From contig CAMYKB010000037.1 of the NCBI GenBank assembly GCA_947258875.1, forward strand, positions 1-50,561: a stretch of DNA of 50,561 nt. The letters are read 5' to 3'. This DNA is from an uncultured Gammaproteobacteria bacterium (GTDB lineage Bacteria; Pseudomonadota; Gammaproteobacteria; CAMYKB01). A program made the position numbers and the translations under genes. Positions 10,196-44,178 of this stretch are shown here, piece by piece. Below the pieces are notes generated by a model. The model was not told the DNA's origin and ran no database searches. It was given only the letters and a program-made list of their open reading frames with translations. The stretch's first letter is position 1; every line of letters starts with the position of its first letter.

Positions 10196-10208
10196 AGATA
10201 AACATGCC

Positions 10209-24693: not shown

Positions 24694-24712
24694 GTCGCTG
24701 GATGTAACTTTA

Positions 24713-25807: not shown

Positions 25808-25825
25808 TACATGAGTATTTGACAG

Positions 25826-26893
25826 ATGTCTGAACCCATTGCTCTGGGCCTTTGCCTGGAAATGATGATCGCCCAGGAAGGCTCTGACCTCCATTACCTG
25901 TCGGGCGATCCGCCCAGGATCAGGCAGAATGGCGACCTGATCGTTCTGGATGAAAATCGACTGACTACCAAACTGGTGGAAGATGAGCTGCTCCAGATTA
26001 TGCAGCCGCGCACGCAGAATGATTTTAAGCGTGAAGACAGTGCCGATTTTGCCTACCTCAAGGAAGGGCTGGCGAGGTTTCGTGTTAATGTTTTCAGGCA
26101 TTTGAATGGTGTTGGTGCGGTATTCAGAGCAATCCCGACCCAGGCATCTGGTCTCGAAACACTTAGTTTGCCGAGCATTCTGGGTAACCTGTGTGCACAA
26201 AAGAAAGGTATGATCCTGGTCACCGGTAAAACCGGTTCTGGTAAGTCGACAACACTTGCGGCAATGGTGGATACGATTAACCAGACTCGTAAGGGCCATA
26301 TACTGACGATCGAAGATCCCATTGAATTTGTGCATGAACGTAATAATTGTTTGATTAGCCAGCGTGAAGTCGGTGATCACACGAGGTCATTTGCAAGCGC
26401 ATTACATTCAGCATTGCGCGAAGACCCGGATGTGATTCTGGTGGGTGAGTTGCGCGATCTGGAAACCATGAGTCTGGCGGTCACTGCTGCCGAGACGGGT
26501 ATACTGGTGTTGGGTACCCTGCATACCAATAGTGCTGCAGCAACCGTCGACCGCATTATCAATACCTTTCCGGTACAGAAACAACCCCATATCCGCACCA
26601 TGCTCTCCACCTCATTGCGTGGCGTTGTTTCCCAAACCCTCCTTAAGAGGATAGATAACAAGGGGCGCGTACCTGCGGTCGAAATCCTTGTGAATAATTC
26701 GGCTGTTGCTAACACCATTCGTGAAGGCAAGACCGATCAGATTGAATCGATTATGCAGGGTGGTTCATTGTCCGGTATGCAAACAATGGATAACTCCTTG
26801 CGCAAATTGCTCGATCAAAGGTTAATTAGCGGTGATGATGCGTATGAACAATCGAACAACAAGTCCGACTTTGAAAAGTATAAAACCAGGTGA
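25826..26893 (+). CDS. PilT/PilU-family ATPase
   Basis: This 355-aa paralogue of the preceding protein starts 18 bp after it. Motifs: N2E segment SDLHYLSGDPPRIRQNGDL, Walker A GKTGSGKSTT with Lys140, Asp box TIEDPIEFVHE, Walker B DPDVILVGELRD, His box ILVLGTLHTNSA, and AVANTIREGKTDQIES, closer to the canonical AIRNLIRE motif than the first copy. PilT and PilU work together in canonical systems, so these two may form a paired motor. It overlaps the following protease gene by 4 bp (GTGA), implying coupling. Confidence 0.9.
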   Translation: MSEPIALGLCLEMMIAQEGSDLHYLSGDPPRIRQNGDLIVLDENRLTTKLVEDELLQIMQPRTQNDFKREDSADFAYLKEGLARFRVNVFRHLNGVGAVFRAIPTQASGLETLSLPSILGNLCAQKKGMILVTGKTGSGKSTTLAAMVDTINQTRKGHILTIEDPIEFVHERNNCLISQREVGDHTRSFASALHSALREDPDVILVGELRDLETMSLAVTAAETGILVLGTLHTNSAAATVDRIINTFPVQKQPHIRTMLSTSLRGVVSQTLLKRIDNKGRVPAVEILVNNSAVANTIREGKTDQIESIMQGGSLSGMQTMDNSLRKLLDQRLISGDDAYEQSNNKSDFEKYKTR

Positions 26894-28684: not shown

Positions 28685-30100
28685 ATGTCTGTTCGTACAC
28701 GATTCGCACCTAGCCCGACCGGCTATTTACATGTTGGCGGTGCGCGTACCGCATTATTTTCCTGGTTATATGCCCGCAAATCGCAAGGTAAGTTTATCCT
28801 GCGTATCGAGGATACTGACCGGGAACGTTCCACCCAGGAATCCATCGATGCCATCCTTGATGGCATGGCCTGGTTGGGACTGCAATATGATGAAGGCCCG
28901 TTCTATCAAACTCAGCGCATGGAACGCTACCGTGAAGTCATCCAGAAGTTACTCGATGATGGCAATGCCTACTATTGCTATTGCACCAGGGAAGAACTTG
29001 ATGAATTGCGGCAACAACAGCTCGCGAATAAGCAGAAACCGCGTTATGACGGGCGTTATCGTGATCATGACGGCCCTCCGCGCGCGGGTGTAGACCCGGT
29101 AATACGTTTCAGGAATCCGCTAGAAGGTGAGGTAGTAGTTCATGACCTGATTCGGGGCAATATCGTTATCCAGAACAGTGAACTCGATGATCTCATCATT
29201 GCACGTTCTGACGGTACACCGACCTACAATCTTACGGTAGTGGTCGATGATATGGATATGGGGATTACCCATGTGATTCGGGGCGATGATCATATCAATA
29301 ACACTCCTCGGCAGATCAATATCCTTCGTGCGCTGGGCGCAGAGTCACCCCAATATGCACACGTACCGATGATTCTGGGTAGCGACGGTAAACGTCTCTC
29401 CAAACGCCATGGCGCTGTGGGTGTCATGCAATACCGTGATGACGGGTTTTTGCCTGAGGCGTTGCTGAATTATCTGGTGCGTCTGGGCTGGTCATATGGC
29501 GACCAGGAGGTTTTCACGCTGGATGAGATGATCGAGCTATTTGACATCAAAGATGTCAATTTCTCGGCCTCAACATTTAATACCGAAAAATTGTCGTGGC
29601 TGAACCAGCATTACATCAAGACCTTGGATGCAAACCATATCGCTGAGCATTTACACTGGCATATGCAGCAATGTGGTATTGCGCTGGATAATGGTCCGCC
29701 ATTGATTGATCTGGTAGAGGCGTATAGGGAACGTGCCAAGACACTCAAGGAGATGGCCAGCAGCAGTCGCTTTTTCTATGAGGAGTTTGAAGATTATGAC
29801 GAGAAAGCGGCCCGCAAGAATCTGAAACCGGCAAGTCTCGATGTCCTGATCGCCTTACGCGATGGCTTTGCAGCGGTGGCTGGCCCTGACTGGTCTGGAG
29901 CAGCGGCCCACGATGTAGTGACACGAGCGGCTGAAGAAAATGATCTGAAACTCGGAAAAGTGGCACAACCGCTGCGCGTCGCAGTATCCGGTACTGCTGT
30001 TTCACCGCCGATAGACATAACCTTGCAACTGCTTGGCAGAGAACGCACGTTAGCGCGTATTGACAGGGCGATCGCAAAAATCACACAAGATAACCCCTGA
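28685..30100 (+). CDS. gltX: Glutamyl-tRNA synthetase
   Basis: This 471-aa class I aminoacyl-tRNA synthetase charges tRNA-Glu. The HIGH-type motif is [17 protein letters not shown] near the N-terminus and the KMSKS-type motif is [12 protein letters not shown] around residue 240. [42 protein letters not shown] is the conserved active-site region. The length equals that of E. coli GltX (471 aa). The anticodon-binding helical domain fills the C-terminal third. An aminoacyl-tRNA synthetase and tRNA-Ala are neighbours but do not form a cognate pair. Confidence 0.98.
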
Positions 30101-30307: not shown

Positions 30308-31054
30308 TTAGCGTTTCAGGCGCCCACGCTGTTTGAGTGTGACGCCGCCACGGCGGTCAACCCGGCCAAGCAACTGTAGCCCATTGCGCACATCAGCCGG
30401 TGTTCGTGCGGTTGGTTCAAGGCGTAGGTTGGTTTGATACTGCCAGCCCTTATCCAGGTCAATTTTGCCCTTGAGGAGTAAATCACCGCCACTATTGCTG
30501 AGCTGCAGCTCGGCCTTTTCCTGCGGGTGATCAAGTTCCGCTTTGACATCACCCAGTGCCAGAGTGAGCGGCGCTGTCAGTCGCGCCTGATTTAACAGGA
30601 TAGTGCCCGCAATATCCTGGATGCCGTCTTCGCCAACATCCAGGGTATCGATGTCGGCACTGAGGGTGCCCGACAGGTTTACTGTATAGGCTTCCAGGTA
30701 GGGCGACAGGGCGGTTATGTCGCCCCTCAGCTGCAATCCCTTTATCGTTACGCCCTGGTTCTTGCGTAAGGATACCCGGGCTTTGCCTTGTAGCTCAGGG
30801 CGTTGGGTAGCAAGTTTCAGCGACACGCGTCCCCACAATAGGGGTAGTGGGTTCGTACGCCACCTGACATCACCAAGCGCGAGTTTGTCGACCATGACAT
30901 TTGCCGCCATGCCTCTCCAGACACTTCCTTCGAGTTGCTGGTAGTAGACTGTGGCCGGCAGGTAACGACTTGCAAGGTGCGCAGGCGCCGTGCCGATTAA
31001 CAGGATTGCATAAAGTGGTAGTCCGATCAGGACATAGCGTAACGCGGTTTTCAT
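30308..31054 (-). CDS. gspN: Type II secretion system protein GspN
   Basis: This 248-aa bitopic inner-membrane protein has one N-terminal helix (YVLIGLPLYAILLIGTAP) followed by a periplasmic beta-rich region (QLEGSVWRGMAANVMV, LPLLWGRVSLKLATQRPELQGKARVS, LQLRGDITALSPYLEAY). GspN is an accessory, not universally conserved T2SS component. Its start codon overlaps the gspM stop (31054). It is the distal gene of the gspG-N run, convergent with the tRNA-Ala gene. Confidence 0.9.
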   Translation of the reverse strand: MKTALRYVLIGLPLYAILLIGTAPAHLASRYLPATVYYQQLEGSVWRGMAANVMVDKLALGDVRWRTNPLPLLWGRVSLKLATQRPELQGKARVSLRKNQGVTIKGLQLRGDITALSPYLEAYTVNLSGTLSADIDTLDVGEDGIQDIAGTILLNQARLTAPLTLALGDVKAELDHPQEKAELQLSNSGGDLLLKGKIDLDKGWQYQTNLRLEPTARTPADVRNGLQLLGRVDRRGGVTLKQRGRLKR

Positions 31055-31536
31055 CAGCGTTGCAGGCTCAGGCGTGAACTGACAAGCCCGGATTCACCAG
31101 TTTTGTCAATGCTGCTGCGGCTGACGCTGATACCGTGTTGCCGCTGCAGTTGATCCAGCCAGCGCATCAGGCTATCGAAGTTTGCATTTTCAATCCAGAG
31201 TTTTGCGCCATTGTTACCGTCAGGCTCCATGCGTTGAATCGCAGCTCGCAGCTTAGCCTGCTTAGCACTGCTTTCGATGGTAGCCAGCATGGAACGATTA
31301 CTGTTCCTGGTCGTTGTAGCGGCCGGTGAGCGCCTCAATCGCTTTACCTTATGGCTGGATTGTTGCATCCATACCAGCAACTCTTTATCTGCTTTAATGT
31401 TATTGGTCAAAAGCTTGTGTTTGCCCGCGAAGGGTTCCAAAACAAGCAGATAGATCAATATCAACAGCAAGGCGCTGGCGCCAGCAATTGTTATCATGCG
31501 TTCACGCGCTGCCAGCGAATCCCACCAGGCCTTCAT
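31054..31536 (-). CDS. gspM: Type II secretion system protein GspM
   Basis: This is a 160-aa bitopic protein: a short cytosolic MKAWWDSLAARER, one transmembrane helix (MITIAGASALLLILIYLLVLEPF) and a periplasmic ferredoxin-like domain (about 75-160). It partners GspL in the inner-membrane platform. MxxWWxSLxxRER is the family hallmark. It overlaps gspL by 4 bp. Confidence 0.93.
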   Translation of the reverse strand: MKAWWDSLAARERMITIAGASALLLILIYLLVLEPFAGKHKLLTNNIKADKELLVWMQQSSHKVKRLRRSPAATTTRNSNRSMLATIESSAKQAKLRAAIQRMEPDGNNGAKLWIENANFDSLMRWLDQLQRQHGISVSRSSIDKTGESGLVSSRLSLQR

Positions 31537-32642
31537 CCCTTGCCTCCATGGATCAGTAAACGAGCACTGACGTTGTCGCCACGCGTCTCGGCGGATTGGA
31601 TACTGGCTGTAAAACCCGCCTTCTCGATTTGCCGTTTGATGGTTTCGAGAGATTCCAGATCGCTGGCTTGCAGTTTGATCTCCAGGCGGCCATCACGGAA
31701 ACCAAGGTTGTTGATCTGTGTGTTCTCAGCCTTGGCAATCGCCTGTGCACCTGTATCGAGTAGTGTGATGAAGTTGTTGCCATCACCAGCCCGCAGGTTT
31801 TCATGTTGCTGTGAGAGTTGTCGAACATCCATGACCTTGACAGCGATCATCACGCTCAGCCAGATTCCCAGCAATACTGCCGCCACGCGCCAGGGTTTTA
31901 GTAATTTGCTGACCGGGCTGCGACTGAGATAGGTGCCTTGCAGCAGGTTCATTGCTGCTTTGCCTGTATGCCCCAACGTCAATACATCCATTGCGCTACA
32001 GTCATCTGTCGCCAATGTCAGCGTGACCGGTAATTGCAGCTGCGGACCAGAGGTTGCGCTGCAGTCATAGACCTTGATCGACACAGGTGGTTGTTCGCAC
32101 TCACTCAATTGTTGCTCTAGTGCCAGCTGCAGATTATCTGTTTCGATGGCTAGGCCGTGAAAGTCATCTGTGCGTAACACGGCGCGTTGTGATTCGATCA
32201 GCAATGTCCAGGTGTCCGGCTGCCAAGGTAGCATGAGACTCTCGGGAACAATGCTCTGTGCATTGATACCCGCCACTGACAGCTCCTGCAATAACTCCTG
32301 CATACGCGCATGTTCGATGACTGCCACTGTGTGGCGGTTGTCACCGAGGGATTCGCCAATTGAGAAATGCAAGTTATCGATATCATCGGCGAGTTCGTCT
32401 TCGAGTGCGTAGGGAACCGCTTTGGCAAGTTGCTGACGGTTGCGTGCCTTGATGCTGACTTCGGTGATCAGCAAGAATTCATCGGGGACCATAGCCACCA
32501 CACGCCGTTGACGGGCCAGGGGCACAGCAGCAGTCAGCTCGCCACGCTCCGTTTGTGTAACGGAATCGTTAGCCGCACTGATGATCCGCCATTCAGCCTG
32601 GCCACCTCCCGTTGCGGGCATTCTTATGACGAGTGTTTCCAT
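31533..32642 (-). CDS. gspL: Type II secretion system protein GspL
   Basis: This 369-aa bitopic protein recruits the GspE ATPase to the membrane. The cytosolic actin-like domain fills about residues 1-240 (VPDEFLLITEVSIKARNRQQLAKAVPYALEDELADDIDNLHF is characteristic). A single transmembrane helix follows (WRVAAVLLGIWLSVMIAVKVMDV), then a periplasmic ferredoxin-like domain (INNLGFRDGRLEIKLQASDLESLETIKRQIEKAGF). It lies 18 bp after gspK and overlaps gspM by 4 bp. Confidence 0.95.
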   Translation of the reverse strand: METLVIRMPATGGGQAEWRIISAANDSVTQTERGELTAAVPLARQRRVVAMVPDEFLLITEVSIKARNRQQLAKAVPYALEDELADDIDNLHFSIGESLGDNRHTVAVIEHARMQELLQELSVAGINAQSIVPESLMLPWQPDTWTLLIESQRAVLRTDDFHGLAIETDNLQLALEQQLSECEQPPVSIKVYDCSATSGPQLQLPVTLTLATDDCSAMDVLTLGHTGKAAMNLLQGTYLSRSPVSKLLKPWRVAAVLLGIWLSVMIAVKVMDVRQLSQQHENLRAGDGNNFITLLDTGAQAIAKAENTQINNLGFRDGRLEIKLQASDLESLETIKRQIEKAGFTASIQSAETRGDNVSARLLIHGGKG

Positions 32643-32660: not shown

Positions 32661-33587
32661 TTATTGGGCTTGGTGTCGTTGCAAGGTTATTATCATACCG
32701 TTTTGTTGGCGGTGCAGTACACTGTTGAGGGAAACTGAAGTACTGCCTATCTGTATTTCGCTATAGAGCAAAAAATAGTCACTCCTCACATCCAACTCCT
32801 GGGAATCGATGGTTATTCCCTTGAGCTCCGGGTGTTGCAGAAATTCGTCGAGGTTTTCAAAAGGTTCGACTTCGCGTGCCTCGATGAGCGCATCCGCCTT
32901 TTGTTGGTCGATTTCAGGTGAAAGGCTGGTGATAAGTTCGGCAGCCGCTGTGTTGACATTGATCGATGTGCGCACAGGCAGGGTACAGAGATAGGGAGTC
33001 AGTTTCAGATAGGTTTCCTGATCAAAGCCCTTGATGAGGCGTAGTTCACTGATATCTGACATCAGGCGGTTGGCGGTGAGGTAGGGGAGTTCCAGTCCCA
33101 TATAGTGATCATCTTCAGCGCCATCAGGTGGCTGTGCATCGATATCCTGATCGATCCAGTCGATCACGGCTTGTGCCAGCCCGGGATCCAGGTCGAGGTG
33201 CTTAAGCAGGCCCTGAAAGCGTGTCATACTAGCCGCATCGAGCTTACCATCGATGATCAGGTTATTAATATTAAAACGCCCCTGTAGATCTGAGAGTTGG
33301 CCCTGTATGCCGCCACCGGGTAACGGGATCGGGGGCAGGGTGTAGGCCCAGGCCTCGTCCAGGCTGTCGATCTTGCTCTCCTTGAGGTCTTCCTTCAGGA
33401 TCGACTTCGCCCAAATCTCGCCACCCTCTGCATACTGCCAGGCCTGGTCGCCATCCAGCAGACTGGCAGTACGGCGCGTATCGTAGAATTGCTGTCGCGC
33501 CATCGATACCGCGATAATGGTGGCTAATGCAACAATCAACAGCACAGTAATCAGGGCAACCCCTTGGTTGTGATGACAGCGGTTCAT
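32661..33587 (-). CDS. gspK: Type II secretion minor pseudopilin GspK
   Basis: This 308-aa minor pseudopilin forms the tip complex with GspI and GspJ. The class III leader ends NQG, and the hydrophobic helix VALITVLLIVALATIIAVSMARQQFYD follows. As in other GspK proteins, the Glu at +5 found in other pseudopilins is absent (Thr here), and the globular domain is large and alpha-helical (DLQGRFNINNL; VIDWIDQDIDAQPPDGAEDDHY; SINVNTAAAELI; YFLLYSEIQIG). It overlaps gspJ by 4 bp. Confidence 0.96.
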   Translation of the reverse strand: MNRCHHNQGVALITVLLIVALATIIAVSMARQQFYDTRRTASLLDGDQAWQYAEGGEIWAKSILKEDLKESKIDSLDEAWAYTLPPIPLPGGGIQGQLSDLQGRFNINNLIIDGKLDAASMTRFQGLLKHLDLDPGLAQAVIDWIDQDIDAQPPDGAEDDHYMGLELPYLTANRLMSDISELRLIKGFDQETYLKLTPYLCTLPVRTSINVNTAAAELITSLSPEIDQQKADALIEAREVEPFENLDEFLQHPELKGITIDSQELDVRSDYFLLYSEIQIGSTSVSLNSVLHRQQNGMIITLQRHQAQ

Positions 33588-34216
33588 TGCAACGTGGGTA
33601 TGACGCGGCGGACCTCTCCCCAGGGCTCGGCCTCAAGGGTGAATTCCACAGCCTTGGGCAGAGGGGACAGGTTTGCCTGGTTGCTATTCTGGGGCGGCCA
33701 GTCGGTCAGCCATTCGTCGTTTTGATCCAGAAAACGCAATTGAAAGTGATCGACATCGGTGAGCAGCGGTGAAACCAGGCTGTTTTCAACCGTATAGCCA
33801 TCTAGTGTCGGCCATACCAGGCGTATCAGTGTGTTTTCTTCATTGATATCGTAGGCCACACGTTGCAATGTGCTGCGTGTCAGTCCCGCGGGATTGCGCC
33901 AGCCACCCCGCGTGAGACTCAACAAGGGTTGAGCCGCGGTTTGCAGCGCGTTCTCTATATCGCCGTATTCATTTCTCACTGGCCTGTCGACCAGTTGCGT
34001 AATGTCACGCTCAAGATAACGCAGGGAAAGTTGCAGTTCGCGCAAGCGTTCAGCCTGCTGTTTGTTGTGTTCATGGCTGATTAATACACTATTAAGACCG
34101 CCATAGGCCATTACTCCAAGGATGGCAAACACTGCCATTGCGATGAGTATTTCCAGTAATGTGAAACCGTCACTACGAGTTCGTGATTGTGGTTTGAGGT
34201 GCATGTTCAGCATCAT
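33584..34216 (-). CDS. gspJ: Type II secretion minor pseudopilin GspJ
   Basis: This 210-aa minor pseudopilin has the prepilin site SDGFTLLEILIAMAVFAILGVMAY, cleaved after Gly with Glu at +5. The soluble beta domain contains LSLRYLERDITQLVDRPVRNEYGD and LTRGGWRNPAGLTRSTLQRVAY, both typical of GspJ. It sits 6 bp after gspI and overlaps gspK by 4 bp. Confidence 0.96.
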   Translation of the reverse strand: MMLNMHLKPQSRTRSDGFTLLEILIAMAVFAILGVMAYGGLNSVLISHEHNKQQAERLRELQLSLRYLERDITQLVDRPVRNEYGDIENALQTAAQPLLSLTRGGWRNPAGLTRSTLQRVAYDINEENTLIRLVWPTLDGYTVENSLVSPLLTDVDHFQLRFLDQNDEWLTDWPPQNSNQANLSPLPKAVEFTLEAEPWGEVRRVIPTLQ

Positions 34217-34222
34217 TGCGAG

Positions 34223-34609
34223 TTAGTTGCCGATAAAGCCGGTCAAGGTTACAAGGCCCGGTAAGTCATCGTCCTTGTGCAAACGCACAGTGATTTCGAC
34301 GCGATGTATACTTTTGTTTGCGGTTTCTTCGACCTTGGTTTGCCAGTACCATTCAGTCCGAGCCATCTCCTCCGAGCCCGAACTGAAACCGACTGCGGGT
34401 GTTGATTTCTGTAGTTGCAGCTCGGTCATCTGATTCAATGCTACCCAGTGCGCAAAGGTTTTGTCACGTAGATAGCTGGCATTTGCAGAGAGGTCTGCGG
34501 TGGTCTTGATGATCGCAGAGAGCGCGACCGCGACGATCGCCAGTGCCACTAGCACTTCAAGTAAGGTGAAGCCGTTATAATTTTGCAGTGCTGGACGCAG
34601 GGTCTTCAT
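34223..34609 (-). CDS. gspI: Type II secretion minor pseudopilin GspI
   Basis: This 128-aa minor pseudopilin has the prepilin site YNGFTLLEVLVALAIVAVALSAIIKTT (Glu +5) followed by LRDKTFAHWVALNQMTELQL, the GspI-typical region. It initiates tip assembly with GspJ/K. It overlaps gspH by 4 bp. Confidence 0.96.
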   Translation of the reverse strand: MKTLRPALQNYNGFTLLEVLVALAIVAVALSAIIKTTADLSANASYLRDKTFAHWVALNQMTELQLQKSTPAVGFSSGSEEMARTEWYWQTKVEETANKSIHRVEITVRLHKDDDLPGLVTLTGFIGN

Positions 34610-35103
34610 GGCGCAGTTTGCATTGTCAGATTGCCGATCGCATCAGCCGTGATAATAATTTCCGTATCGTCATCATCATGCAAACTCATTTCGAAGGGAG
34701 TGAATTCGCCTCCCGAGAGAATGTAAATCTGCGGGTCCTCGGGTTGATTGACAGGTAAATCCACCTTTAGGCCTTCGAGGTGGAGTTGCGGTGTGAACTG
34801 GTCAGATAACTCACGCGTGCGAAACGCCTGATCTGCCGTGATAACCTGCCATTCATTATCAACCAGCTGGTAATAACCAAATCCGGTTTGCCAGAAGGCG
34901 AGTGCATAATCCTGGCCATTGAAGACCGCTTCTTCTTTGGCAAGGGTCGTCAGGGCGAGTATTTGTTTTGCGGCCTGTTCAAGTTTATGTGACTGTGTAT
35001 TGCCGATGGCGAGCACCGCAAAGCCGGTCATGATGGCGATGATCACCAACACCGCCAATAACTCGAGCAGGGTAAAACCCCTTGCACGATTCCGGCGTGG
35101 CAT
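34606..35103 (-). CDS. gspH: Type II secretion minor pseudopilin GspH
   Basis: This 165-aa minor pseudopilin has the prepilin site ARGFTLLELLAVLVIIAIMTGFAVLAIG (Glu +5). The following beta-rich head (NGQDYALAFWQTGFGYYQLVDNEWQV) matches GspH. It links the pseudopilus tip to the GspG shaft. It lies 5 bp after gspG. Confidence 0.95.
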   Translation of the reverse strand: MPRRNRARGFTLLELLAVLVIIAIMTGFAVLAIGNTQSHKLEQAAKQILALTTLAKEEAVFNGQDYALAFWQTGFGYYQLVDNEWQVITADQAFRTRELSDQFTPQLHLEGLKVDLPVNQPEDPQIYILSGGEFTPFEMSLHDDDDTEIIITADAIGNLTMQTAP

Positions 35104-35108
35104 TGTGA

Positions 35109-35576
35109 TTACTCAAGCCCCCAGCTTGTGATATCGGAATTTGCCGCTTCGCCACCCACCTGGTTGTCTGCACCCAGCGAGTAAAGATCGTACTTGCCAT
35201 GTTCGCCCGGGCTCAGGTACTGGTAATCATTGCCCCAGGGGTCCTTGGGCATGCGTGCAATGTATCCGTCTTCCTTCCAGTTGCGTGGCTCAGGAGGAAT
35301 ACCGGGTTTAATGGCGAGGGCTTCTAAGCCTTGCTCGGTGGTAGGGTAATTATAATTGTCCAGCTTGTAGAGATTGAGAGCGCTTTCCAGCGCGCGTATA
35401 TCCTGCTTGGCCTTGACGATACGCGCATCATCCGGACGACTCATCACGCGTGGCACCACGATGGCCGCCAGAATGGAGAGGATTACCACCACCACAATCA
35501 CCTCGATCAGGGTGAAGCCGGCTGCAGCTTTGCTGGATAGTGCTGCGTTGTGTTTGTTATCAGAGTATGGGTTCAT
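35109..35576 (-). CDS. gspG: Type II secretion major pseudopilin GspG
   Basis: This 155-aa major pseudopilin forms the pseudopilus fibre. The prepilin site is [24 protein letters not shown] (Glu +5). The C-terminal head has the GspG calcium loop and signature: [48 protein letters not shown], then DITSW. It heads the G-N half of the T2SS locus and is divergent, across 41 bp, from the rhombosortase gene, so it needs its own promoter or read-through from gspF. Confidence 0.97.
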
Positions 35577-35617
35577 GGTCTGTTTATCTCGTTAAAAATA
35601 AGGTTCAATAGTATCAA

Positions 35618-36232
35618 ATGAAAATAACTTCACGCATGGCTCCGTTGTTAGAGCGCTGGTGGCCAGTATTGTTCGTTATTATTGTGGCCGGCCTGCTGCA
35701 GGCACTGATGCCAGACAGTGGGCAGGCCTTGCGTTTCGAACGTGGCAGCATCCAATCTGGCCAACTGTGGCGGGTGATTACGGGGCATCTCATACACCTC
35801 GGCTGGGGACATTACCTGATGAATATGCTGGGCTTGCTGCTGATCTGCGGGATCTATCGCCATCGGCTCACCGCGGGTATTACCATTACTTGGTTGCTGG
35901 TCTGCGCAGTCGTTGTGAGTGGCGGTTTGTTGTTGTTCAATCCGAATGTGCATTGGTATGTGGGCCTCTCTGGCGTACTGCATGGCATCCTGGTGGCAGC
36001 AGCCATCAGTGACCTGAAAACACATCGCTGGGAGAGTCTGGTAATACTTGGCTTCACAGGTGCAAAATTGCTGTGGGAGCAGTTGCAGGGTTCGGTACCA
36101 GGGAGTGCGTCGGTAGCCGGTGGCCAGGTGGTGGTAGATGCACATTTATATGGGATGCTCGGCGGTCTCTTGGTGGTGATATTGACGGTGATTGGGAAAA
36201 GGCTAAAATTGCCGTGGGTTATGGGTTTATAA
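35618..36232 (+). CDS. rrtA: Rhombosortase (GlyGly-CTERM-processing rhomboid-family intramembrane protease)
   Basis: This is a 204-aa integral membrane protein with about six helices. Rhombosortase hallmarks are W51-R-x-x-TGHLIHLGWGHYLMN (H57, H60, H65, N69), the catalytic serine in GLSGVLHG (Ser118) and the catalytic His in DAHLYGM (His176). Rhombosortases cleave the GlyGly-CTERM tail of proteins exported by type II secretion, releasing or modifying them at the surface. No GlyGly-CTERM tail was seen in the proteins of this window, so substrates lie elsewhere. It is transcribed against the gsp genes, inserted between gspF and gspG. Confidence 0.9.
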   Translation: MKITSRMAPLLERWWPVLFVIIVAGLLQALMPDSGQALRFERGSIQSGQLWRVITGHLIHLGWGHYLMNMLGLLLICGIYRHRLTAGITITWLLVCAVVVSGGLLLFNPNVHWYVGLSGVLHGILVAAAISDLKTHRWESLVILGFTGAKLLWEQLQGSVPGSASVAGGQVVVDAHLYGMLGGLLVVILTVIGKRLKLPWVMGL

Positions 36233-36244
36233 GTGTAAACCCAT
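36221..36244. repeat. 9-bp hairpin overlapping the rhombosortase stop
   Basis: ATGGGTTTA (36221-36229) and TAAACCCAT (36236-36244) form a perfect 9-bp stem with a 6-nt loop, in the convergent gap between rrtA and gspF. The stem is AT-rich and neither strand has a T-run directly after it, so it may slow but not cleanly terminate transcription. Confidence 0.45.
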
Positions 36245-36303
36245 ATAAAAACAATGATATACAATATATTTATTATGTAAATGATTACCTAGTGTCAAGT
36301 GCA

Positions 36304-37518
36304 TCATTTTACCAGCTGATTGAGTTCGAAAATCGGTAGCAGGATGGCGAGTACGATCAGCAACACCAAAATGCCCATGGTCAGTATCATGATGGGCTCA
36401 AACAACGCCAGCAGTGTGCCCAACAAAGTTTGTAGTTCGCGCTCTTGTTGGTCCGCCGCCCGTTCCAGCATGATTTCGAGTTTGCCACTGGATTCGCCGC
36501 TGGCGATAAGGTGCAGGGTCATGGGCGGGAACAGTTTAGAGCTTTCCAGTGCGGCGTTGATGCTGGCGCCTTCCCGCACGCTGGCGCTGGCATTCATGAT
36601 GGCTTCACGCATGGGCAGGTTGCGCACTACCTGGGCGGATATCCTTAGTGCATCGAGTACCGGGACGCTGCTTGCGACCAGGATACTTAAAGTACGTGCA
36701 AAGCGGGCCGTATTCACGCCTTTGATCAATCTGGACAGCAAGGGTAGTGTTAGCAGGCCGTTGTGCACGCGGTAGCGGAATGTATCACTGCGCAGCATGC
36801 GTGCAAACAGGACCACAGCGATGACCAGGGCTATCAGGATAAGCAGACCATAGGATTTGGTGAAATCACTGATAGCAATCAGGCTACGCGTGAGCAGCGG
36901 AAGTTCCTGGCCAAGGTTCTCAAATACCTCGACGACCTGAGGCACCACGTAGGTCAGCAGCCCGATCACGACCAGGAACGCAATAGTCGTCAGGATAATC
37001 GGGTAGATCAGTGCCATGCTGAGGCGCTGTTGCATGTCCTGGCGTTTCTCTGCGTAGTCAGCAAGCCTATCGAGGACTGTATCGAGATGCCCTGATTTTT
37101 CGCCTGCGGCGACAGTAGCGCTATAAAGTTCGGGAAACGCACCTGGAAAGTCACGCAATCCCGCTTCCAGTGCATGGCCTTCGGTGACACGTGTACGCAC
37201 CCCCATGATGATGCGCTTCACGCGCGGTTTGTCGTTTTGCCGTGCCGCAGTGCCGAGAGCTTCTTCCAGTGGGATGCCCGAGCGAACCAGGGTAGACAGC
37301 TGCCGCGTCATCAGCGCGAGTTCAGTCGAACTGAGGCCCTGGTTGAAGCGGTGTTTCATGCCGCCTTGCTGTTTGCCTTCTGTGATGGTGGTGATGTCCA
37401 GTGGCTGCAGTCCGCGCTCGCGTAACGCCTGGCGTGCTTGGCGTGGCGTATCACCCTCTACGACGCCGCGCTGCTCGCGACCACCGGGATTCAGTGCTTT
37501 ATATTCAAAGGCGGGCAT
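36304..37518 (-). CDS. gspF: Type II secretion inner-membrane platform protein GspF
   Basis: This 404-aa polytopic protein is the central platform that couples GspE to pseudopilus assembly. It carries two repeated cytosolic helical domains (about 70-170: ALMTRQLSTLVRSGIPLEEALG; about 270-370: ARFARTLSILVASSVPVLDALRIS) and three transmembrane helices (near LIYPIILTTIAFLVVIGLLTYVV, LLILIALVIAVVLF and LFEPIMILTMGILVLLIVLAILLPI). The N-terminal MPAFEYKALNPGGREQRGVVEGD is a GspF signature. It is 53 bp after gspE and convergent with rrtA. Confidence 0.97.
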   Translation of the reverse strand: MPAFEYKALNPGGREQRGVVEGDTPRQARQALRERGLQPLDITTITEGKQQGGMKHRFNQGLSSTELALMTRQLSTLVRSGIPLEEALGTAARQNDKPRVKRIIMGVRTRVTEGHALEAGLRDFPGAFPELYSATVAAGEKSGHLDTVLDRLADYAEKRQDMQQRLSMALIYPIILTTIAFLVVIGLLTYVVPQVVEVFENLGQELPLLTRSLIAISDFTKSYGLLILIALVIAVVLFARMLRSDTFRYRVHNGLLTLPLLSRLIKGVNTARFARTLSILVASSVPVLDALRISAQVVRNLPMREAIMNASASVREGASINAALESSKLFPPMTLHLIASGESSGKLEIMLERAADQQERELQTLLGTLLALFEPIMILTMGILVLLIVLAILLPIFELNQLVK

Positions 37519-37571
37519 AAGCGATTATAGGGGTCAGGCAAATGTTGGCGTAGTGGGCAACAACACAGGCC

Positions 37572-39089
37572 CTAGTCTTCCCGGGTGACGCGCAGTACTT
37601 CTTCCAGAGTGGTGACGCCGGACAGCACCAGGCGCATACCGTCCTGGCGGATGCTGGATGTTTTGCTGCGTGCATATTTCTCGAGTTGGTGTTCAGCCGC
37701 GTTGTCATGGATCATATTGCGCAGGTTGTCATCGAGTGGGATTAACTCATAGATACCGGTGCGGCCGGTGTAGCCGGTGTTATTGCAGTTCTTGCAGCCA
37801 TTGGCAGAGAAGATGGTTATGGCAGAATCGCCTGGTTGATCTGATGAGGCTATAGACAGTTGTTGCTGTTCTGTGGGTGAGGCTGTATGCACTTGTTTGC
37901 AGTCATCGCAAAGGACGCGTACCAGGCGTTGTGCCAGCACCGCAAGCAGGCTTGAGGCCAGTAGGAATGGCTCAATACCCATATCCCGTAAGCGTGTGAT
38001 TGCACCGACTGCGGTATTGGTGTGCAGTGTCGAGAATACGGTGTGGCCGGTGAGACTGGCCTGCACCGCGATTTGCGCTGTTTCCAGGTCACGTATTTCA
38101 CCAACCATCACCACATCGGGATCCTGGCGCAGGATGGCACGCAGGCCTCTTGCAAAGGTCATATCAACCTTGGAGTTGACCTGTGTCTGGCCGATACCCT
38201 CAAGCAAATATTCGATCGGATCTTCGACTGTAAGGATGTTGCGTTGTTTGTCGTTGAGTTCGGTTAACGCAGCATACAGCGTTGTTGTTTTGCCTGATCC
38301 TGTTGGGCCGGTGACGAGCACAATCCCATGCGGCTTGTGCACGATTTCCCTGAGCAGATCATGGGTGGTATCGCTCATCCCCAGGTGGCGAAGATCAAGG
38401 CGCCCCGCCTGTTTATCCAGCAGTCGCATGACAACGCGTTCACCGTGACCGGAGGGCAGGGTCGAGACGCGCACGTCAACCGCGCGCCCGGCAATTTTGA
38501 GTGAGATACGCCCATCCTGCGGCAGGCGTTTTTCAGCAATATCCAGTTTAGCCATCACCTTGATGCGGGACACGATCAGGCTGGCCATATTGCGTGGCGG
38601 TTGCAGCAGCTCACGCAACACCCCGTCGACGCGAAAGCGTACCGACAGATGGGTCTCATAGGGTTCGATATGAATATCCGACGCGTTTTCCTTGATAGCC
38701 TCGGTCAACAGTGCATTGATCAGGCGGATGATCGGCGCGTCATCTTCCGTTTCCATAAGATCTTCTGGCTCGGGAAGCGACTCGGCGAGGCTGGCTAAAT
38801 CCAGGTCATCACCCAGGTCCTCCATCATCGCCATGGCGCCATTGGTACTACTGTCGTAACTCTTGGTCAGCAGGCTATTGAATTCGTTTTCCGGCAAGGT
38901 GGTGAAGGTCAGGGGCTTGCCTAGAAATCGCCGCAGTTCGTTAATCGTGAGGCTGCGAACATTCGGCCGTTGATAGATCACCACGCGGCCATCGATTTCC
39001 TCACCCACCACAACGCCATGACGCTTGGCGAACCCGTAAGGTGGTTTGCGCAAAGGGCTTGATGCAGAAACACTGAGAGTATCGGTCAT
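37572..39089 (-). CDS. gspE: Type II secretion assembly ATPase GspE
   Basis: This 505-aa cytosolic hexameric ATPase powers pseudopilus growth. The N1E/N2E domains precede the catalytic core: Walker A GPTGSGKTTTLYAAL, Asp box TVEDPIEYLLEG, Walker B DPDVVMVGEIRDLETAQ, His box GHTVFSTLHTNTA. A zinc loop with two CxxC pairs (CDDC ... CKNC) before TGYTGRTGIYELIPLD distinguishes it from the two PilT-like proteins of this window. It overlaps gspD by 4 bp. Confidence 0.97.
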   Translation of the reverse strand: MTDTLSVSASSPLRKPPYGFAKRHGVVVGEEIDGRVVIYQRPNVRSLTINELRRFLGKPLTFTTLPENEFNSLLTKSYDSSTNGAMAMMEDLGDDLDLASLAESLPEPEDLMETEDDAPIIRLINALLTEAIKENASDIHIEPYETHLSVRFRVDGVLRELLQPPRNMASLIVSRIKVMAKLDIAEKRLPQDGRISLKIAGRAVDVRVSTLPSGHGERVVMRLLDKQAGRLDLRHLGMSDTTHDLLREIVHKPHGIVLVTGPTGSGKTTTLYAALTELNDKQRNILTVEDPIEYLLEGIGQTQVNSKVDMTFARGLRAILRQDPDVVMVGEIRDLETAQIAVQASLTGHTVFSTLHTNTAVGAITRLRDMGIEPFLLASSLLAVLAQRLVRVLCDDCKQVHTASPTEQQQLSIASSDQPGDSAITIFSANGCKNCNNTGYTGRTGIYELIPLDDNLRNMIHDNAAEHQLEKYARSKTSSIRQDGMRLVLSGVTTLEEVLRVTRED

Positions 39090-41056
39090 GGTGGCGTTAC
39101 AGCTCCTGTTTCGAGCTCTGGCGGCTGGGGTTGTGGCATCTGCGTGATCAGTTCGTCCAGGTCAGGCAGGTTGGTGCCGCGTGTTTTGAGCAGGCCGCGG
39201 CGGTCCATTTTCGATTCGATCTGGCGTGCACGCAGGTAATCGTACTTGCGGTTAGTGACATAATCCGCCGAGTTGCGGTCACGCAGGATGACTGGATGGA
39301 TGAACACCATCAGGTTGCTCTTCCTCTTAGTGCTTGCGTCGGAACGGAACAGGCGGCCGAGTAGTGGAATGTCGCCCAGTAAGGGCACTTTGTCGACCGA
39401 ATCGGTGAATTCATCCTCGATCAAGCCGCCCAGCACCAGTATCTGGTCGTCTTCCACGAGTACGCTGGTCTTGATACTGCGCTCGTTGGTGATGAACCCG
39501 GCACCCTCAACATTGGCGCCAAGACTGGAAGCTTCCTGCTCGATCTGTAGTTTGAGAGTATTACCTTCATTGATCTGGGGCGTCACTCGCAGCAGGATGC
39601 CGACATCCTTACGATCAAAGGTTTGAAAGGGGTTGGTTGAACTGTCACCCGTTTGAGTGAAAGAGCCCGTTAAGATGGGGACTTCCCTGCCAACGTTAAT
39701 TTCGGCTTCTTCATTATCCATGGTAACCAGTGTCGGGGTCGATAGGATATTGGTAGCGGCATCGCTTTGCAGTGCATTGAGGAGCACCGCGAAATTCGTG
39801 CGACCGTCACGATTGTCGCCAGCACCCAGTACTAGCCCTGCGATATTACCTGCGACCGATTCGGGGCTGGCGATGAGATTTGCGAGGGGGACACTTGAAA
39901 ACGGAAAGTTAGTACCGCCGACTGCGCGGTCCTTGTCGAGCAGGGCAAACTGTACCCCCAATTCTGCAGCCAGGTCGGTAGTGACGTCGGCGATAATGGT
40001 TTCTACCAGTACCTGTGCACGGCGGATATCCAGTTGCCGTACAACACTTTTAATGCGTTCAAATTCGTCGGGAGCCGCAGTCACCAGCAAGGCGTTATTG
40101 CCGGGGTCGGCCTGAATATCAAGTTCACCCTTACTGACATTCGCTACAACCGCAGGTTTGCCACCCTGGGCGGCGGTCTGTTGGGTTTTGCTGATACCAA
40201 GTAACAATGGGGCCAGCTCTTCGGCCTTGGCGTACTTGAGAAAAATAACCTGGGTCTTGCCTGAATATTCCAGTGGTGTATCCAGGTGCGCGATGATGCC
40301 ACGTATACGTAGTCTCGAAGCCTTGTCACCGCTGAGCAACAGACTGTTGGTGCGGTCATCCGCAACCAGCAGAGGCGCACCAGGGAGCTGGGCGCCCTTG
40401 GCGTCTTTCTGAGCCAGGGTGCTGATGATACGTACGATTTCATTGGCCGAAGCATGTTGCAGCGGGATAACCTCGATTTCCTGACTGTCTGGCTTATCGA
40501 TGCGTTGCACGATGCGCACCAGGCGGTCGATATTGGCGGCTCGATCGGAAATAATGAGCATGTTGCTTGAGGTATAAGCGGCCAGGTGTCCCTGCTGTGG
40601 TATCAACGGGCGCAGGATAGGCACCATCTGTGCGGCCGGGACGTTTTGCACCGCGATAACACGGGTCACCATTTCATCGCCAATACCGGGGCTGCCAGGG
40701 CTGCTGATCGAAACCGGGCCTTGTTTGGCGCTGACATCTGGCACAATTTTGATGATATTACCAACCTCTACCGCAGCGTAGCCGTTCACCTGCAAGACAG
40801 ACAAAAATACCTGGTAAACCTCGTTCTTGTTCATGGGCTTTGAGGAGATCACCGTGACTTTGTTGCCCTTTACCCTGGCATCGATGATGAAGTTTTTGCC
40901 GGTTGCTTCAGCGACAATCTCTACCAGTGAGCGGATATTGACATCCTTGAGGTTGAGCGTGACGTCATCATCTGCATGGCTGACAGTGGCAGCACCTGCA
41001 ACCAGCAGGACGAGGCCGACGGCGTAATTGATGAGCGTGCGAACACTGGCTTTCAT
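39086..41056 (-). CDS. gspD: Type II secretion outer-membrane secretin GspD
   Basis: This 656-aa secretin has a signal peptide ending near VSHA. It runs N0 (VTLNLKDVNIRSLVEIVAEATGKNFIID), then N1-N3 (VIAVQNVPAAQMVPILRPLIPQQGHLAAY; VIPLQHASANEIVRIISTLAQ; VIFLKYAKAEELAPLL). The barrel-forming secretin domain contains VLVETIIADVTTDLAAELGVQF, GREVPILTG and VLGGLIEDEFTDSVDKVPLLGDIPLLGRLFRS. It makes the 15-mer channel through which folded proteins leave. No separate pilotin gene is seen here. Confidence 0.98.
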   Translation of the reverse strand: MKASVRTLINYAVGLVLLVAGAATVSHADDDVTLNLKDVNIRSLVEIVAEATGKNFIIDARVKGNKVTVISSKPMNKNEVYQVFLSVLQVNGYAAVEVGNIIKIVPDVSAKQGPVSISSPGSPGIGDEMVTRVIAVQNVPAAQMVPILRPLIPQQGHLAAYTSSNMLIISDRAANIDRLVRIVQRIDKPDSQEIEVIPLQHASANEIVRIISTLAQKDAKGAQLPGAPLLVADDRTNSLLLSGDKASRLRIRGIIAHLDTPLEYSGKTQVIFLKYAKAEELAPLLLGISKTQQTAAQGGKPAVVANVSKGELDIQADPGNNALLVTAAPDEFERIKSVVRQLDIRRAQVLVETIIADVTTDLAAELGVQFALLDKDRAVGGTNFPFSSVPLANLIASPESVAGNIAGLVLGAGDNRDGRTNFAVLLNALQSDAATNILSTPTLVTMDNEEAEINVGREVPILTGSFTQTGDSSTNPFQTFDRKDVGILLRVTPQINEGNTLKLQIEQEASSLGANVEGAGFITNERSIKTSVLVEDDQILVLGGLIEDEFTDSVDKVPLLGDIPLLGRLFRSDASTKRKSNLMVFIHPVILRDRNSADYVTNRKYDYLRARQIESKMDRRGLLKTRGTNLPDLDELITQMPQPQPPELETGAVTPP

Positions 41057-41212
41057 TCTGGATACGGTCCTTCTTGGATAAGGTTATTGGTCTCTAGCCC
41101 TGCTTCCGTGGATAGATTGTACCGGCGCTTATGAGTTAATAATCAACTATATATCAAATTGTTATACCACTTATCTGAAATAGCTATGATGATTGTACAG
41201 GGTCATAGTGTT
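41057..41212 (-). other. 156-bp gap between gspC and gspD
   Basis: This gap is long for a T2SS operon, where neighbours usually touch. On the minus strand it holds AT-rich stretches such as TATAAC and TATATA, about 45-80 bases before the gspD start, compatible with an internal promoter, but no convincing -35/-10 pair. No ORF and no hairpin with a T-tract was found. Confidence 0.35.
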
Positions 41213-42145
41213 TCATTCATCAAAAGTGTGGTTCAGATACACCTCGCTACCGTTACGTAGCAAGGTCACGTTAACTTCTTGCGCGGATCTGAGCTGATGC
41301 AACGCCTTGAGTCCCTTACCAGGATTATCCAGGGTCATGCCATTTACACCGGTAATGATATCGCCGTTTTCAAGTCCAATACGCGTGAATAACTCGGATT
41401 TACGCTTGGGAGTGATGCGGTAACCTATGAATTGTCCACCTTCACTGTGCGGTGTCGCCTTGACGAGGTCATTCAGCCGTGCTGGATTTTTCAGTACATC
41501 ACTGCGCACTTCGCTAAAGCTTTTGCCTGCCCCGAAATTGGATACGGCGTCGCTAGTAACTCCCGGCCTGATGCGCGGCCGACCAGGCCGGGTCTTGGTT
41601 GGCACAGTGGTTGTTATTGAGCTGTTGCCCGTGTCCTTGGCTTTTGGCATACGCAAGGTCTCGAGTTGGGCATTACGTTCGAGGATCACCCGGTCTGCGT
41701 AGACAGCCTTGAGTTTGGCTCCACCTGCGACATCATCGCCAATGTGGTAGTACTTTTCATCATTACGGCCACCCGATATCACCGCCATGGCATCTTCGCT
41801 GTCTGTTGCGTAAACACCATGTAATTTGAGGTTGAGGCGTGTCTCGGGTGCATCTTGCGGGAGTTGCTCCGCTGTGATCTGGGCCTCACCAAACAGGTGC
41901 AGAGACGCAATACGGTTGCCGTAGTTCACCCTGCCAGCCGAACGCGGCGCCGTCTGCTGACTGGTGTTAGTGGTCGGTGGTACGCGGGCTTCGGGTTCGG
42001 GTGCGACGATTTGCCAGGTCAATTTTGCCAGTTGCAGGGCGATAAGAGCCAGCAACAGCAGACTGACCAACATGGGCAATCTCTGCATTAGCGCATTGAA
42101 ACGGCTATTACGGCTCAGGCTTTCAAGCAACTGCGTCATCCTCAA
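41213..42145 (-). CDS. gspC: Type II secretion inner-membrane protein GspC
   Basis: This 310-aa bitopic protein connects the inner platform with the secretin. A short cytosolic tail and transmembrane helix (LPMLVSLLLLALIALQLAKLTWQIV) are followed by the HR domain (ASLHLFGEAQ ... RLNLKLHGVYATDSEDAMAVISGGRNDEKYYHIGD). A C-terminal PDZ-like domain contains GYRITPKRKSELFTRIGLENGDIITGVNGMTL. It is the first gene of the minus-strand T2SS locus, 156 bp from gspD. The region upstream of it (42146-42281) is AT-rich and should carry its promoter. Confidence 0.95.
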   Translation of the reverse strand: MRMTQLLESLSRNSRFNALMQRLPMLVSLLLLALIALQLAKLTWQIVAPEPEARVPPTTNTSQQTAPRSAGRVNYGNRIASLHLFGEAQITAEQLPQDAPETRLNLKLHGVYATDSEDAMAVISGGRNDEKYYHIGDDVAGGAKLKAVYADRVILERNAQLETLRMPKAKDTGNSSITTTVPTKTRPGRPRIRPGVTSDAVSNFGAGKSFSEVRSDVLKNPARLNDLVKATPHSEGGQFIGYRITPKRKSELFTRIGLENGDIITGVNGMTLDNPGKGLKALHQLRSAQEVNVTLLRNGSEVYLNHTFDE

Positions 42146-42275
42146 GCACAGGCTGGCATATATTTTTTATAAAATTCAAAGGACTATTCTATTTTATTAG
42201 AATTAATATGACAATTCCGTATGGTGCTGGTTCCCACGATTTTTCCATAATCTGGTCAGGCTGGCCTGGCGGCAA

Positions 42276-42308
42276 TAAAAAGGCGCCCCAGTGTGGCACT
42301 GGGGCGCC
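42276..42308 (-). terminator. Strong Rho-independent terminator after the oligoendopeptidase gene
   Basis: GGCGCCCCAGTG (42282-42293) and CACTGGGGCGCC (42297-42308) form a perfect 12-bp GC-rich stem with a TGG loop. Read on the minus strand it is followed by TTTTTATTG. It lies 16 bp beyond the pepF-like stop and separates the opp-peptidase operon from gspC. Confidence 0.9.
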
Positions 42309-42324
42309 CATAGTTTAACAGGCC

Positions 42325-44178
42325 CTAGCTGCGCTGGCGTTTCAGAATGGTTTCGATTTCATCCATGATGGCATTCATGCGTTTGACCAGTGATTGGTAA
42401 GGTGCCGGTGTGGCCAGATCAACGCCGGCAGCGAGCAGCAACTCATACGGATAGTCCGATCCACCTGCCTTGAGCAAGCCCAGGTAGTTTTCCAGAGCGC
42501 CAGCTTCGCCTGCCATGACGCGATCGGCCAGCAGTGACGAGGCAGCCAGCGATGTGGCGTACTGGTAGACATAGAAGTTGTAATAAAAATGTGGAATATA
42601 TGCCCATTCAATAGTGTAGGGCTCATCAATGACGACAACCCCCTTGTCATGCCCGTGATAGCGTTTGAGAATATCGGCATAGATCCTGGTCATACTTTCA
42701 CCAGAAAGTGCTTCACCTTTTTCCACTTCCTCATGAATCTTGAGCTCGAACTCGGCAAACATGGCCTGGCGGTAAAAGGTGCCGCGTAACTGTTCCAGTG
42801 CCGATCCAAGATAAAACAAGCGTTCTTCATCATTCTTTGCCTCACTCAACATTTTGTCGAGCAACAGAGCTTCGTTGAAAGTGGAAGCAATTTCAGCTGT
42901 GAAGATTGAATAGTCAGCTGTGACATAGGGTTGCGAGGTATTGGCCAGCCATGAGTGCATGGTGTGTCCCCATTCATGCGCCAGAGTGGAGACGTCGTCG
43001 TAGTCCTCATTGTAGTTCATCAAGATATAGGGATGAACGTCATACGCTGAACCATTCGAATAGGCTCCTGAGCGTTTACCGGCTCGCGGATAGACATCCA
43101 TCCAGCGGTTGTCAAAGCCCTTGCGGGCGACATCTACATAGCTCTTACCCAGGGGCTTGACGGCATCGAGGAACAGTTGCTTGCCTTTTTCAATGGGGAA
43201 ACTGAGGTCTGATTTAACCAGCGGTGGGTAAATATCGTAATAATGCATTTCACCGATACCCAGCATTTTGCGGCGTAGCTTGAAGTAACGATGCAGGGTG
43301 TCGAGATTGGCATTCACCTGTTCGATGAGTGTGTGGTAAACCGCTTCAGGGATCTTGTTGGCACCCAATGCCGAGGCCAGTGAATTTGGATAATTTCTGA
43401 CCTTGGCATAAAAGCTGTCACGTTTCACTTGAGAGTACAGCGAGGTACCGAAGGTACGTGAGTAGTTCTGCCACATTGGCCAGAAGGTGTTGAAGACCAG
43501 TTTGCGGTCGGCCCGATTGGGCGCCGCGCGGTGTTTACTGTAACCGGCCTGATCCAGACGCACCGTGCTACCGTCTGAAAGTGTCACCGTCGGCCAGGGT
43601 ACATCGGCATTAGCAAGAATACTGTAAACATTATACGGGGTATCCGTTACCAGTCCCGCCGTTGCGATAATCTTTTCCTCGCTCTCTGACAGGGTGTGAG
43701 GTGCTTGTCGCAAGACATCATCCAGGAAATGTCCGTAAATCAGCAGATCCGGGTCTTGCTCCATAAAGCTCAATATCTTGTCTTCACCCAGTTTAAGAAT
43801 TTCGGGAGAAAGGAAACTGGTCTTCTGTGAAAAACCGGTTGCCACCAGGCTGGCCTTTTGGTCCATTTCCTGGGCCTTGGCAACCTTGGTATCTTGATCA
43901 CTCATCATGGAGGCGTAGGATTGCGCCTGGCTGAGTTGTTTGTCTATTTCAAAGATGGTGTCCAGGCAACGCTTGAAGGTCATTGCGTCATCGCCCAGAT
44001 GCCCCTGACAGGCCTGGATTTCACTAAGACGCGATTCAATCAAATCAATCGCGGCGCGCCACTGTTGGTTATCGGCATAAAGATGCGTTAAGTCCCAGCG
44101 ATCTTTTTCTTTTTCCGCAAATGCCTGGGAAGAGGCGAGTAGGCCTAAAGTGCAAATAGTGATAACAAATTTTCGCAT
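42325..44178 (-). CDS. pepF: Exported M3-family oligoendopeptidase F
   Basis: This is a 617-aa zinc metallopeptidase. The catalytic motif HEWGH (401-405, in STLAHEWGHTMHSW) and the downstream third-ligand segment FTAEIASTFNEALLLDKML match the M3B/PepF family. Unlike the classical cytosolic enzyme it begins with a clear signal peptide (MRKFVITICTLGLLASSQAFA, cleavage about residue 21), so it should degrade oligopeptides in the periplasm or outside. It lies 41 bp after oppF with its own ribosome site (TTTGGAG) and no terminator between, so it is probably the last gene of the opp operon: peptides are shortened before or alongside uptake. Confidence 0.93.
   Translation of the reverse strand: MRKFVITICTLGLLASSQAFAEKEKDRWDLTHLYADNQQWRAAIDLIESRLSEIQACQGHLGDDAMTFKRCLDTIFEIDKQLSQAQSYASMMSDQDTKVAKAQEMDQKASLVATGFSQKTSFLSPEILKLGEDKILSFMEQDPDLLIYGHFLDDVLRQAPHTLSESEEKIIATAGLVTDTPYNVYSILANADVPWPTVTLSDGSTVRLDQAGYSKHRAAPNRADRKLVFNTFWPMWQNYSRTFGTSLYSQVKRDSFYAKVRNYPNSLASALGANKIPEAVYHTLIEQVNANLDTLHRYFKLRRKMLGIGEMHYYDIYPPLVKSDLSFPIEKGKQLFLDAVKPLGKSYVDVARKGFDNRWMDVYPRAGKRSGAYSNGSAYDVHPYILMNYNEDYDDVSTLAHEWGHTMHSWLANTSQPYVTADYSIFTAEIASTFNEALLLDKMLSEAKNDEERLFYLGSALEQLRGTFYRQAMFAEFELKIHEEVEKGEALSGESMTRIYADILKRYHGHDKGVVVIDEPYTIEWAYIPHFYYNFYVYQYATSLAASSLLADRVMAGEAGALENYLGLLKAGGSDYPYELLLAAGVDLATPAPYQSLVKRMNAIMDEIETILKRQRS

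Follow-up and report, generated by a model that had tools for sequence, protein, structure and literature searches.

A rhombosortase gene paired head-to-head with gspG in the type II secretion locus of an uncultured gammaproteobacterium

Introduction

Why does a gene for a rhombosortase, an intramembrane serine protease, lie on the opposite strand between gspF and gspG, inside the gene set of a type II secretion system (T2SS)? We addressed this question in a 50,561-nucleotide stretch of DNA from an uncultured gammaproteobacterium (hereafter, the window), where an earlier note had described the gene, rrtA, as inserted into the gsp operon. The link between rhombosortase and type II secretion drawn previously is, in the literature text available to us, the co-occurrence of the genes in genomes. 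The accessible text of Haft and Varghese 2011 (PMC3237569) describes rhombosortase genes adjoining single cargo genes, marks no T2SS subclass by rhombosortase, and contains no mention of a head-to-head pairing of rrtA with gspG. The analysis below leads us to consider it likely that rrtA encodes an active rhombosortase that has long been paired head-to-head with gspG and processes tailed cargo for the T2SS.

rrtA lies between two halves of a complete gsp gene set

The rrtA ORF (35618-36232, + strand, 204 aa) matched the rhombosortase model TIGR03902 with 149.1 bits (cut-off 84, E 9.4e-44) and the generic Rhomboid domain PF01694 with 49.3 bits. GlpG-type rhomboid proteases have PF01694 in common with the rrtA product, which nevertheless scored far below the cut-offs of the GlpG models (27 bits, cut-off 250, and 20.7 bits, cut-off 335). 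Elsewhere in the source genome, which is 98.5% complete in 67 contigs, there were two further weak matches to rhomboids, with TIGR03902 scores of 21.8 and 21 bits.

Both flanking genes are on the minus strand, so that rrtA stands head-to-head with gspG (35109-35576, major pseudopilin, TIGR01710, 187.7 bits) and tail-to-tail with gspF (36304-37518, inner-membrane platform protein, TIGR02120, 510 bits); the coordinates and strands thus agree with the arrangement originally proposed. The interval 35577-36303 runs from the gspG start to the gspF stop, of which only 35618-36232 is rrtA proper. The head-to-head gap of 41 bp (35577-35617), the expected site of the start signals of both genes, is 71% A+T and the tail-to-tail gap of 71 bp (36233-36303) is 75% A+T, compared with 48% for the window.

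On the gspF side follow gspE (37572-39089, ATPase, PF00437, 529 bits), gspD (39086-41056, secretin, PF00263 and the GspD N0 domain) and gspC (41213-42145, TIGR01713, 131 bits, cut-off 101.6), with 53 bp between gspF and gspE, an overlap of gspE and gspD, and 156 bp between gspD and gspC. On the other side, gspG is followed by gspH (34606-35103), gspI (34223-34609, PF02501), gspJ (33584-34216, PF11612), gspK (32661-33587, NF037980, 321.8 bits), gspL (31533-32642, TIGR01709, 227 bits), gspM (31054-31536, PF04612, 133 bits) and gspN (30308-31054, PF01203, 133.5 bits), which overlap or nearly touch (gaps of -4 to 18 bp). All of these genes are on the minus strand. GspH was named by position, since Pfam returned only a pilin N-methylation motif match for it, and it seeded its own profile. 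The family matches on either side of rrtA therefore bear out the described split into gspCDEF and gspGHIJKLMN. The locus resembles a type II secretion gsp operon in its complete C-N set, in order, and differs from it in the opposite-strand gene between F and G.

Beyond gspN lies gltX (28685-30100); in Methylonatrum kenyense, gltX (13041-14426) is about 2.5 kb from rrtA, with no gsp genes in the flank examined. Two neighbouring plus-strand ORFs of the window with T2SSE-type ATPase domains (24689-25804 and 25823-26890) are presumably pilT and pilU.

The catalytic pair is conserved among rhombosortases

Ser118 of the rrtA product was present in 128/128 aligned rhombosortases and His176 in 126/128, the remaining two being gapped at that column, which upholds the catalytic pair named in the earlier note. 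The spacing of the two residues, 58, equals that of S102 and H160 in Vibrio cholerae RssP, the residues mutated there according to the available text of Gadwal 2018 (PMC6219818). An AlphaFold model based on six sequences had a mean pLDDT of 70.5 and was too weak to bear on the six membrane helices of the rhomboid fold; a Foldseek search with it gave no PDB match at E <=0.001, and the best rhomboid-like entry was a designed fold (TM 0.39).

The system resembles the GlyGly-CTERM system of RssP in the family score, the Ser/His spacing, the T2SS in the genome and the tails composed of a glycine motif, a helix and basic residues. It differs in that rrtA here pairs head-to-head with gspG and in that TIGR03501 gives no match for the genome's own C-terminal tails.

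The divergent rrtA-gspG pair recurs in many relatives

We searched 369 genomes of the class for rhombosortases at a threshold of E 1e-22, with all matches above the cut-off, and found 128 genes in 126 genomes. In the 128 neighbourhoods, window included, gsp genes were marked by profiles grown from the window proteins, and a gsp neighbour was counted when a hit above 100 bits lay within 1.5 kb of rrtA. In 42 of the 128, from 24 families, rrtA was divergent beside gspG. In 38 of these the script labelled the neighbour gspG, and in four (L073, L145, L174 and L175) gspH, because in the four the stop-to-stop frame of gspG overlaps rrtA; the coordinates identify the neighbour there as gspG too. A divergent adjacency this frequent has a p of 4e-80 at a chance rate of 0.002, a rate that we set ourselves and a calculation that ignores relatedness, the 42 loci being non-independent because the genomes are related.

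The orientation was divergent in 42 of the 44 rrtA-gspG neighbours; in the other two (L154 and L165), rrtA lies between gspF and gspG in the direction of the operon. In one further locus (L166), rrtA is upstream of gspC. The full gspF-rrtA-gspG sandwich, with gspF within 1.5 kb, occurred in 7 of the 42 divergent loci, from five families (the window, L071, L102, L128, L129, L135 and L148), and gspF was farther off in four (2.3-2.4 kb in L098, L155 and L170; 8 kb in L069). In the remaining 31, gspF was absent from the flank, which extended 0.8 to 10.2 kb beyond rrtA. The start-to-start gap, with start codons assigned by rule, was 30 to 400 bp in 40 of the 42 divergent loci (median about 126), and that of the window was the second shortest among these 40.

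Linkage to gsp genes is not required, since 83 of the 128 rrtA genes had no gsp neighbour within 1.5 kb, a count that includes eight loci whose sequence ends too close upstream to judge and leaves short downstream ends uncounted. In one of the 83 (L124), gspG is 2.5 kb off with a large frame in between. Five named relatives, found by contig search, likewise had no gsp genes in the flank examined, which totals 6.5 kb in one of them (L040). On the best tree of the 128 rrtA proteins, the linked/unlinked label changed 22 times, compared with 34.7-36.3 under shuffled labels, and the well-supported branches force only 3 changes. The pairing is thus clustered by descent, with an almost always identical orientation. 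By tree path, the rrtA of the window is nearest to those of L155 and L170 (SH-aLRT 89, on a branch that was not starred).

Because the neighbourhood recurs in so many related bacteria, an old pairing is likelier than a stray insertion. "Inserted" is probably the wrong picture of this gene, which forms a head-to-head pair with gspG here and in many relatives. In the available text of the rhombosortase and GlyGly-CTERM literature (PMC3237569, PMC4713064, PMC10128026, PMC13393428, PMC6219818, PMC5300114 and PMC11389362), we found no report of the gspG pairing, nor of the internal-site frames described below.

Gene order favours a separate start of gspG

The earlier note had reasoned that gspG needs either a promoter of its own in the 41-bp gap or read-through. 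Our scan for sigma-70-like sites with at least 9 of 12 matching positions found none in this gap. Lowering the threshold to 8 of 12 gave three minus-strand matches between 35560 and 35760, of which one (35624-35595) has most of its length in the gap; no plus-strand match that could serve rrtA appeared at this level. Upstream of gspG in 41 of the 42 divergent loci, sites of at least 9 of 12 were present in 5 regions, where shuffles gave 4.5; upstream of gspH, gspI and gspJ, they were present in 1/38, 1/35 and 1/39, against 2.9, 1.9 and 1.5. Base composition accounts for the raw excess at gspG, and the sequence thus lends a promoter no support. A further site of at least 9 of 12 on the minus strand (36281-36254) would read through rrtA into gspG; the region 35000-42500 contained 9 promoter-like sites, against an expectation of 5.6 (sd 2.6).

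A stem over the rrtA stop codon (36220-36245), possibly a non-canonical terminator, has 11 pairs on the plus strand and 10 on the minus strand, with folding energies of -12.8 and -11.4 kcal/mol, respectively. Its z values were -2.7/-3.1 in a 46-base stretch and -1.6/-1.7 in 109 bases. The stem has no U-run and is missing from the list of the terminator scan, and because of the missing U-run we did not call it a terminator. Upstream of gspC, pepF is followed by a hairpin that resembles a terminator (42309-42281) and then by a promoter-like site with 10 of 12 matching positions (42214-42186), both on the minus strand; the two fit a gspC start at that place.

The argument for a separate start comes from comparing loci: in the 31 of 42 divergent loci without gspF in the flank, gspG heads its gene run. 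A separate transcription start of gspG, one part of the original proposal, is accordingly favoured by the gene order, and the promoter scans lend it no support. It is also conceivable that gspG is read by read-through from some other upstream gene.

The genome encodes candidate cargo with GlyGly-CTERM-type tails

TIGR03501 found no match in the source genome at E 0.001, and 14 control genomes were likewise silent. Of the 126 rhombosortase genomes, 80 were searched with this model, which matched at E 1 in 62 of them and exceeded its cut-off in 47; its silence in the source genome therefore says little. At E 10, it pointed to three places in the source genome, on contigs C4, C11 and C33, of which that on C4 was retained. 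The C11 place was rejected as off-frame in a 392-aa ORF on the same strand, and the C33 place as off-frame in a 592-aa ORF with two stops inside.

We then used a profile (A1) of 18 tails, one of which is the genome's own tail on C4. It marked eight places, namely C4 (E 0.003, its own tail being in the profile), C14 (0.04), C17 (0.24), C24 (0.36), C22 (0.42), C60 (0.46), C11 (4.8) and a second place on C14 (5.1). On reading, we kept C4, both C14 places and C22, all with tripartite tails (internal in the case of C4), and rejected C17, C24, C60 and C11. Since C17 and C24 outscored C22, the choice of C22 and of the second C14 place relies on reading and not on score. A later profile, A3, includes the genome's own tails, which obtain low E-values by construction.

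Three of the tails are C-terminal. A 692-aa VIT/VWA protein ends in SGGGAFDTWMLMLLAPALLFRWTRRQ and a 905-aa reprolysin-like metalloprotease in SGGGGGGSLSALMLLFLLVPFGRMIMVTVNARYRPLT, and both have, by eye, a tripartite tail and a signal peptide. A 460-aa protein ends in SGGSGALGLVELLLLISGCLVGIYPRRNKKRL; the tail is present, and translation from the listed TTG start gives no clear signal peptide. None of the three candidate tails matched TIGR03501 at E 1 (cut-off 15.5 bits), and we regard them as GlyGly-CTERM-type as judged by their architecture and our own profiles. The earlier note had held that a genome devoid of GlyGly-CTERM proteins would speak against it; the search returned these three C-terminal tails, on which TIGR03501 is silent, and the note is therefore not refuted on this point.

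We also searched the neighbourhoods of rrtA for ends with a glycine motif, a helix and basic residues, covering 133 loci (the 128 and the five named relatives), and found 20 such ORFs in 19 of them. Among the 45 gsp-linked loci (42 divergent, 2 co-directional and 1 upstream of gspC), the search found only L069, with two tailed ORFs between gspF and rrtA. Inspection of six loci by eye revealed a further tailed ORF in each of L155 and L170, where the ORF continues about 20 residues past the basic end. In these three loci (tailed ORFs at 2216-7960 in L069, 5378-7465 in L155 and 7515-9536 in L170), cargo, cutter and exporter form one neighbourhood. The place between rrtA and gspF that tailed cargo occupies in L155 and L170 is taken in L098 by an ORF (7432-8742) that is lipoprotein-like by eye (LSGC near the start). 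A tailed ORF stands directly beside rrtA in ten unlinked loci (L077, L082, L162, L163, L187, L188, L190, L194, L195 and L196), which resemble the single-cargo genomes with an adjacent cargo gene in the accessible text of PMC3237569. Two genomes carry two rhombosortase genes each, G308 (L149 and L162) and G349 (L095 and L188), and the L162 and L188 copies each adjoin a tailed ORF.

Proposed processing of cargo for type II secretion

In the mechanism that we propose, the divergent intergenic region would be the starting point of both rrtA and the gspG-N half of the T2SS, and gspC-F would form a separate unit ending against rrtA. Cargo proteins, which carry a signal peptide and end in a glycine motif, a helix and basic residues, would reach the periplasm and be held there by the C-terminal helix. 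RrtA would then cut at the glycine motif, by analogy with VesB of V. cholerae, for which the available literature text gives cleavage after Gly383 of an SGGS motif and a T2SS-dependent surface location. The cut product would pass through the T2SS to the cell surface. Likely cargo in this genome would be the VIT/VWA protein, the reprolysin-like metalloprotease and, with its signal peptide not clear, the 460-aa protein. The recurrent pairing with gspG and the tailed proteins in the genome agree with the previous suggestion that linkage of rrtA to the T2SS makes functional sense. The gene order is real and meaningful, and the functional reading is, as an inference, sound. Such a recurrent link between the genes for cutter and exporter would tie rhombosortase processing to type II secretion, and the rrtA-gspG pairing offers a gene-order handle on cargo.

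A recent insertion, in which rrtA entered a gsp operon that was still intact in this lineage and read-through now feeds gspG-N, would fit a sandwich with a close gspF (7/128, five families) that is rarer than the plain divergent pair, and the short gaps within gspD-F and gspG-N; the site at 36281-36254 (-) would supply the read-through, the numbers of such sites being near chance. The identical divergent orientation in 42 loci of 24 families, and the two gaps, in neither of which mobile-element remains were seen by eye, make this reading improbable. Another possibility is that the rrtA product acts on a T2SS component, a pseudopilin or GspL/M/N, so that the linkage reflects assembly and not cargo processing. 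Most linked loci indeed pair rrtA with gspG and not with cargo, and the search found a tailed ORF in only 1 of the 45 linked loci (L069), with two more by eye (L155 and L170). Nevertheless, the genome has cargo with glycine-motif tails, ten unlinked loci have a tailed ORF directly beside rrtA, and the translated Gsp proteins of the window showed, by eye, no such tail, and we therefore hold a T2SS target to be very improbable.

A neighbourhood kept by chance from an ancestor, without shared regulation, is a more serious alternative, one that touches only the regulatory part of our reading and is compatible with cargo processing. It fits the 22 label changes on the best rrtA tree (3 forced by well-supported branches), the 83/128 unlinked genes and the lack of a shared promoter signal. 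It fits less well with an orientation that is the same in 42/44 neighbours and a pairing that persists across 24 families, and on balance we consider it rather unlikely. We thus return to the long-standing pair of an active rhombosortase gene and gspG as the likely reading.

A passenger and an OmpA-type barrel share one frame

The internal tail on C4 belongs to a 1493-aa protein encoded outside the window in one frame with a GTG start (7287-11768, - strand, of locus L086). The order is a signal peptide, an adhesin-like passenger with Ig-like repeats (Big_13, 82 bits) and TSP3-like repeats (16.3 bits, short of the cut-off of 25), the GlyGly-CTERM-like segment TGSGTGSLGLLSLMLLSVLLALRYRP, a short basic loop, a second hydrophobic stretch that forms a signal-peptide-like helix, and an OmpA-type barrel (28.2 bits, cut-off 21), after which the frame ends. 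The internal tail alone reached 14.1 bits with TIGR03501 (cut-off 15.5).

The last 237 residues of this protein had matches at E 1e-6 in 38 of the 369 class genomes; 37 of these belong to the 126 with a rhombosortase, and the remaining one (G101) has a 204-aa frame without a passenger. Frames of at least 800 aa with a barrel-end match occurred in 24/126 rhombosortase genomes and 0/243 others (Fisher p 1.3e-12, a value that ignores relatedness and comes from a query taken from a rhombosortase genome). Of 30 barrel-end loci taken for comparison, 17 carry at least 475 passenger residues ahead of the barrel and 13 are barrel-only. A loose regular expression for a glycine motif, a helix, a basic loop and a second helix matched 15 of the 17 passenger loci and 0/13 barrel-only loci, and the other two passenger loci (L213 and L222) have two helices by eye.

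These frames lead us to suggest, tentatively and as something just short of probable, that rhombosortase in addition acts at internal sites of proteins that yield two products. The two helices may fold into a hairpin whose basic loop lies in the cytoplasm; cleavage by rhombosortase would release the passenger for the T2SS and cleavage by signal peptidase the outer-membrane protein, so that one gene would yield both in equimolar amounts. Should these frames be true substrates, a C-terminal sorting signal need not always sit at the C-terminus, and a surface adhesin and its own partner in the outer membrane would come from a single gene.

All six of the long relatives' frames given to Pfam, taken from the 17, have an OmpA domain at the end. 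When ten junction tails were submitted alone to TIGR03501, three reached the cut-off, three stayed below it and four were silent, one of which reached the cut-off of a MYXO-CTERM model.
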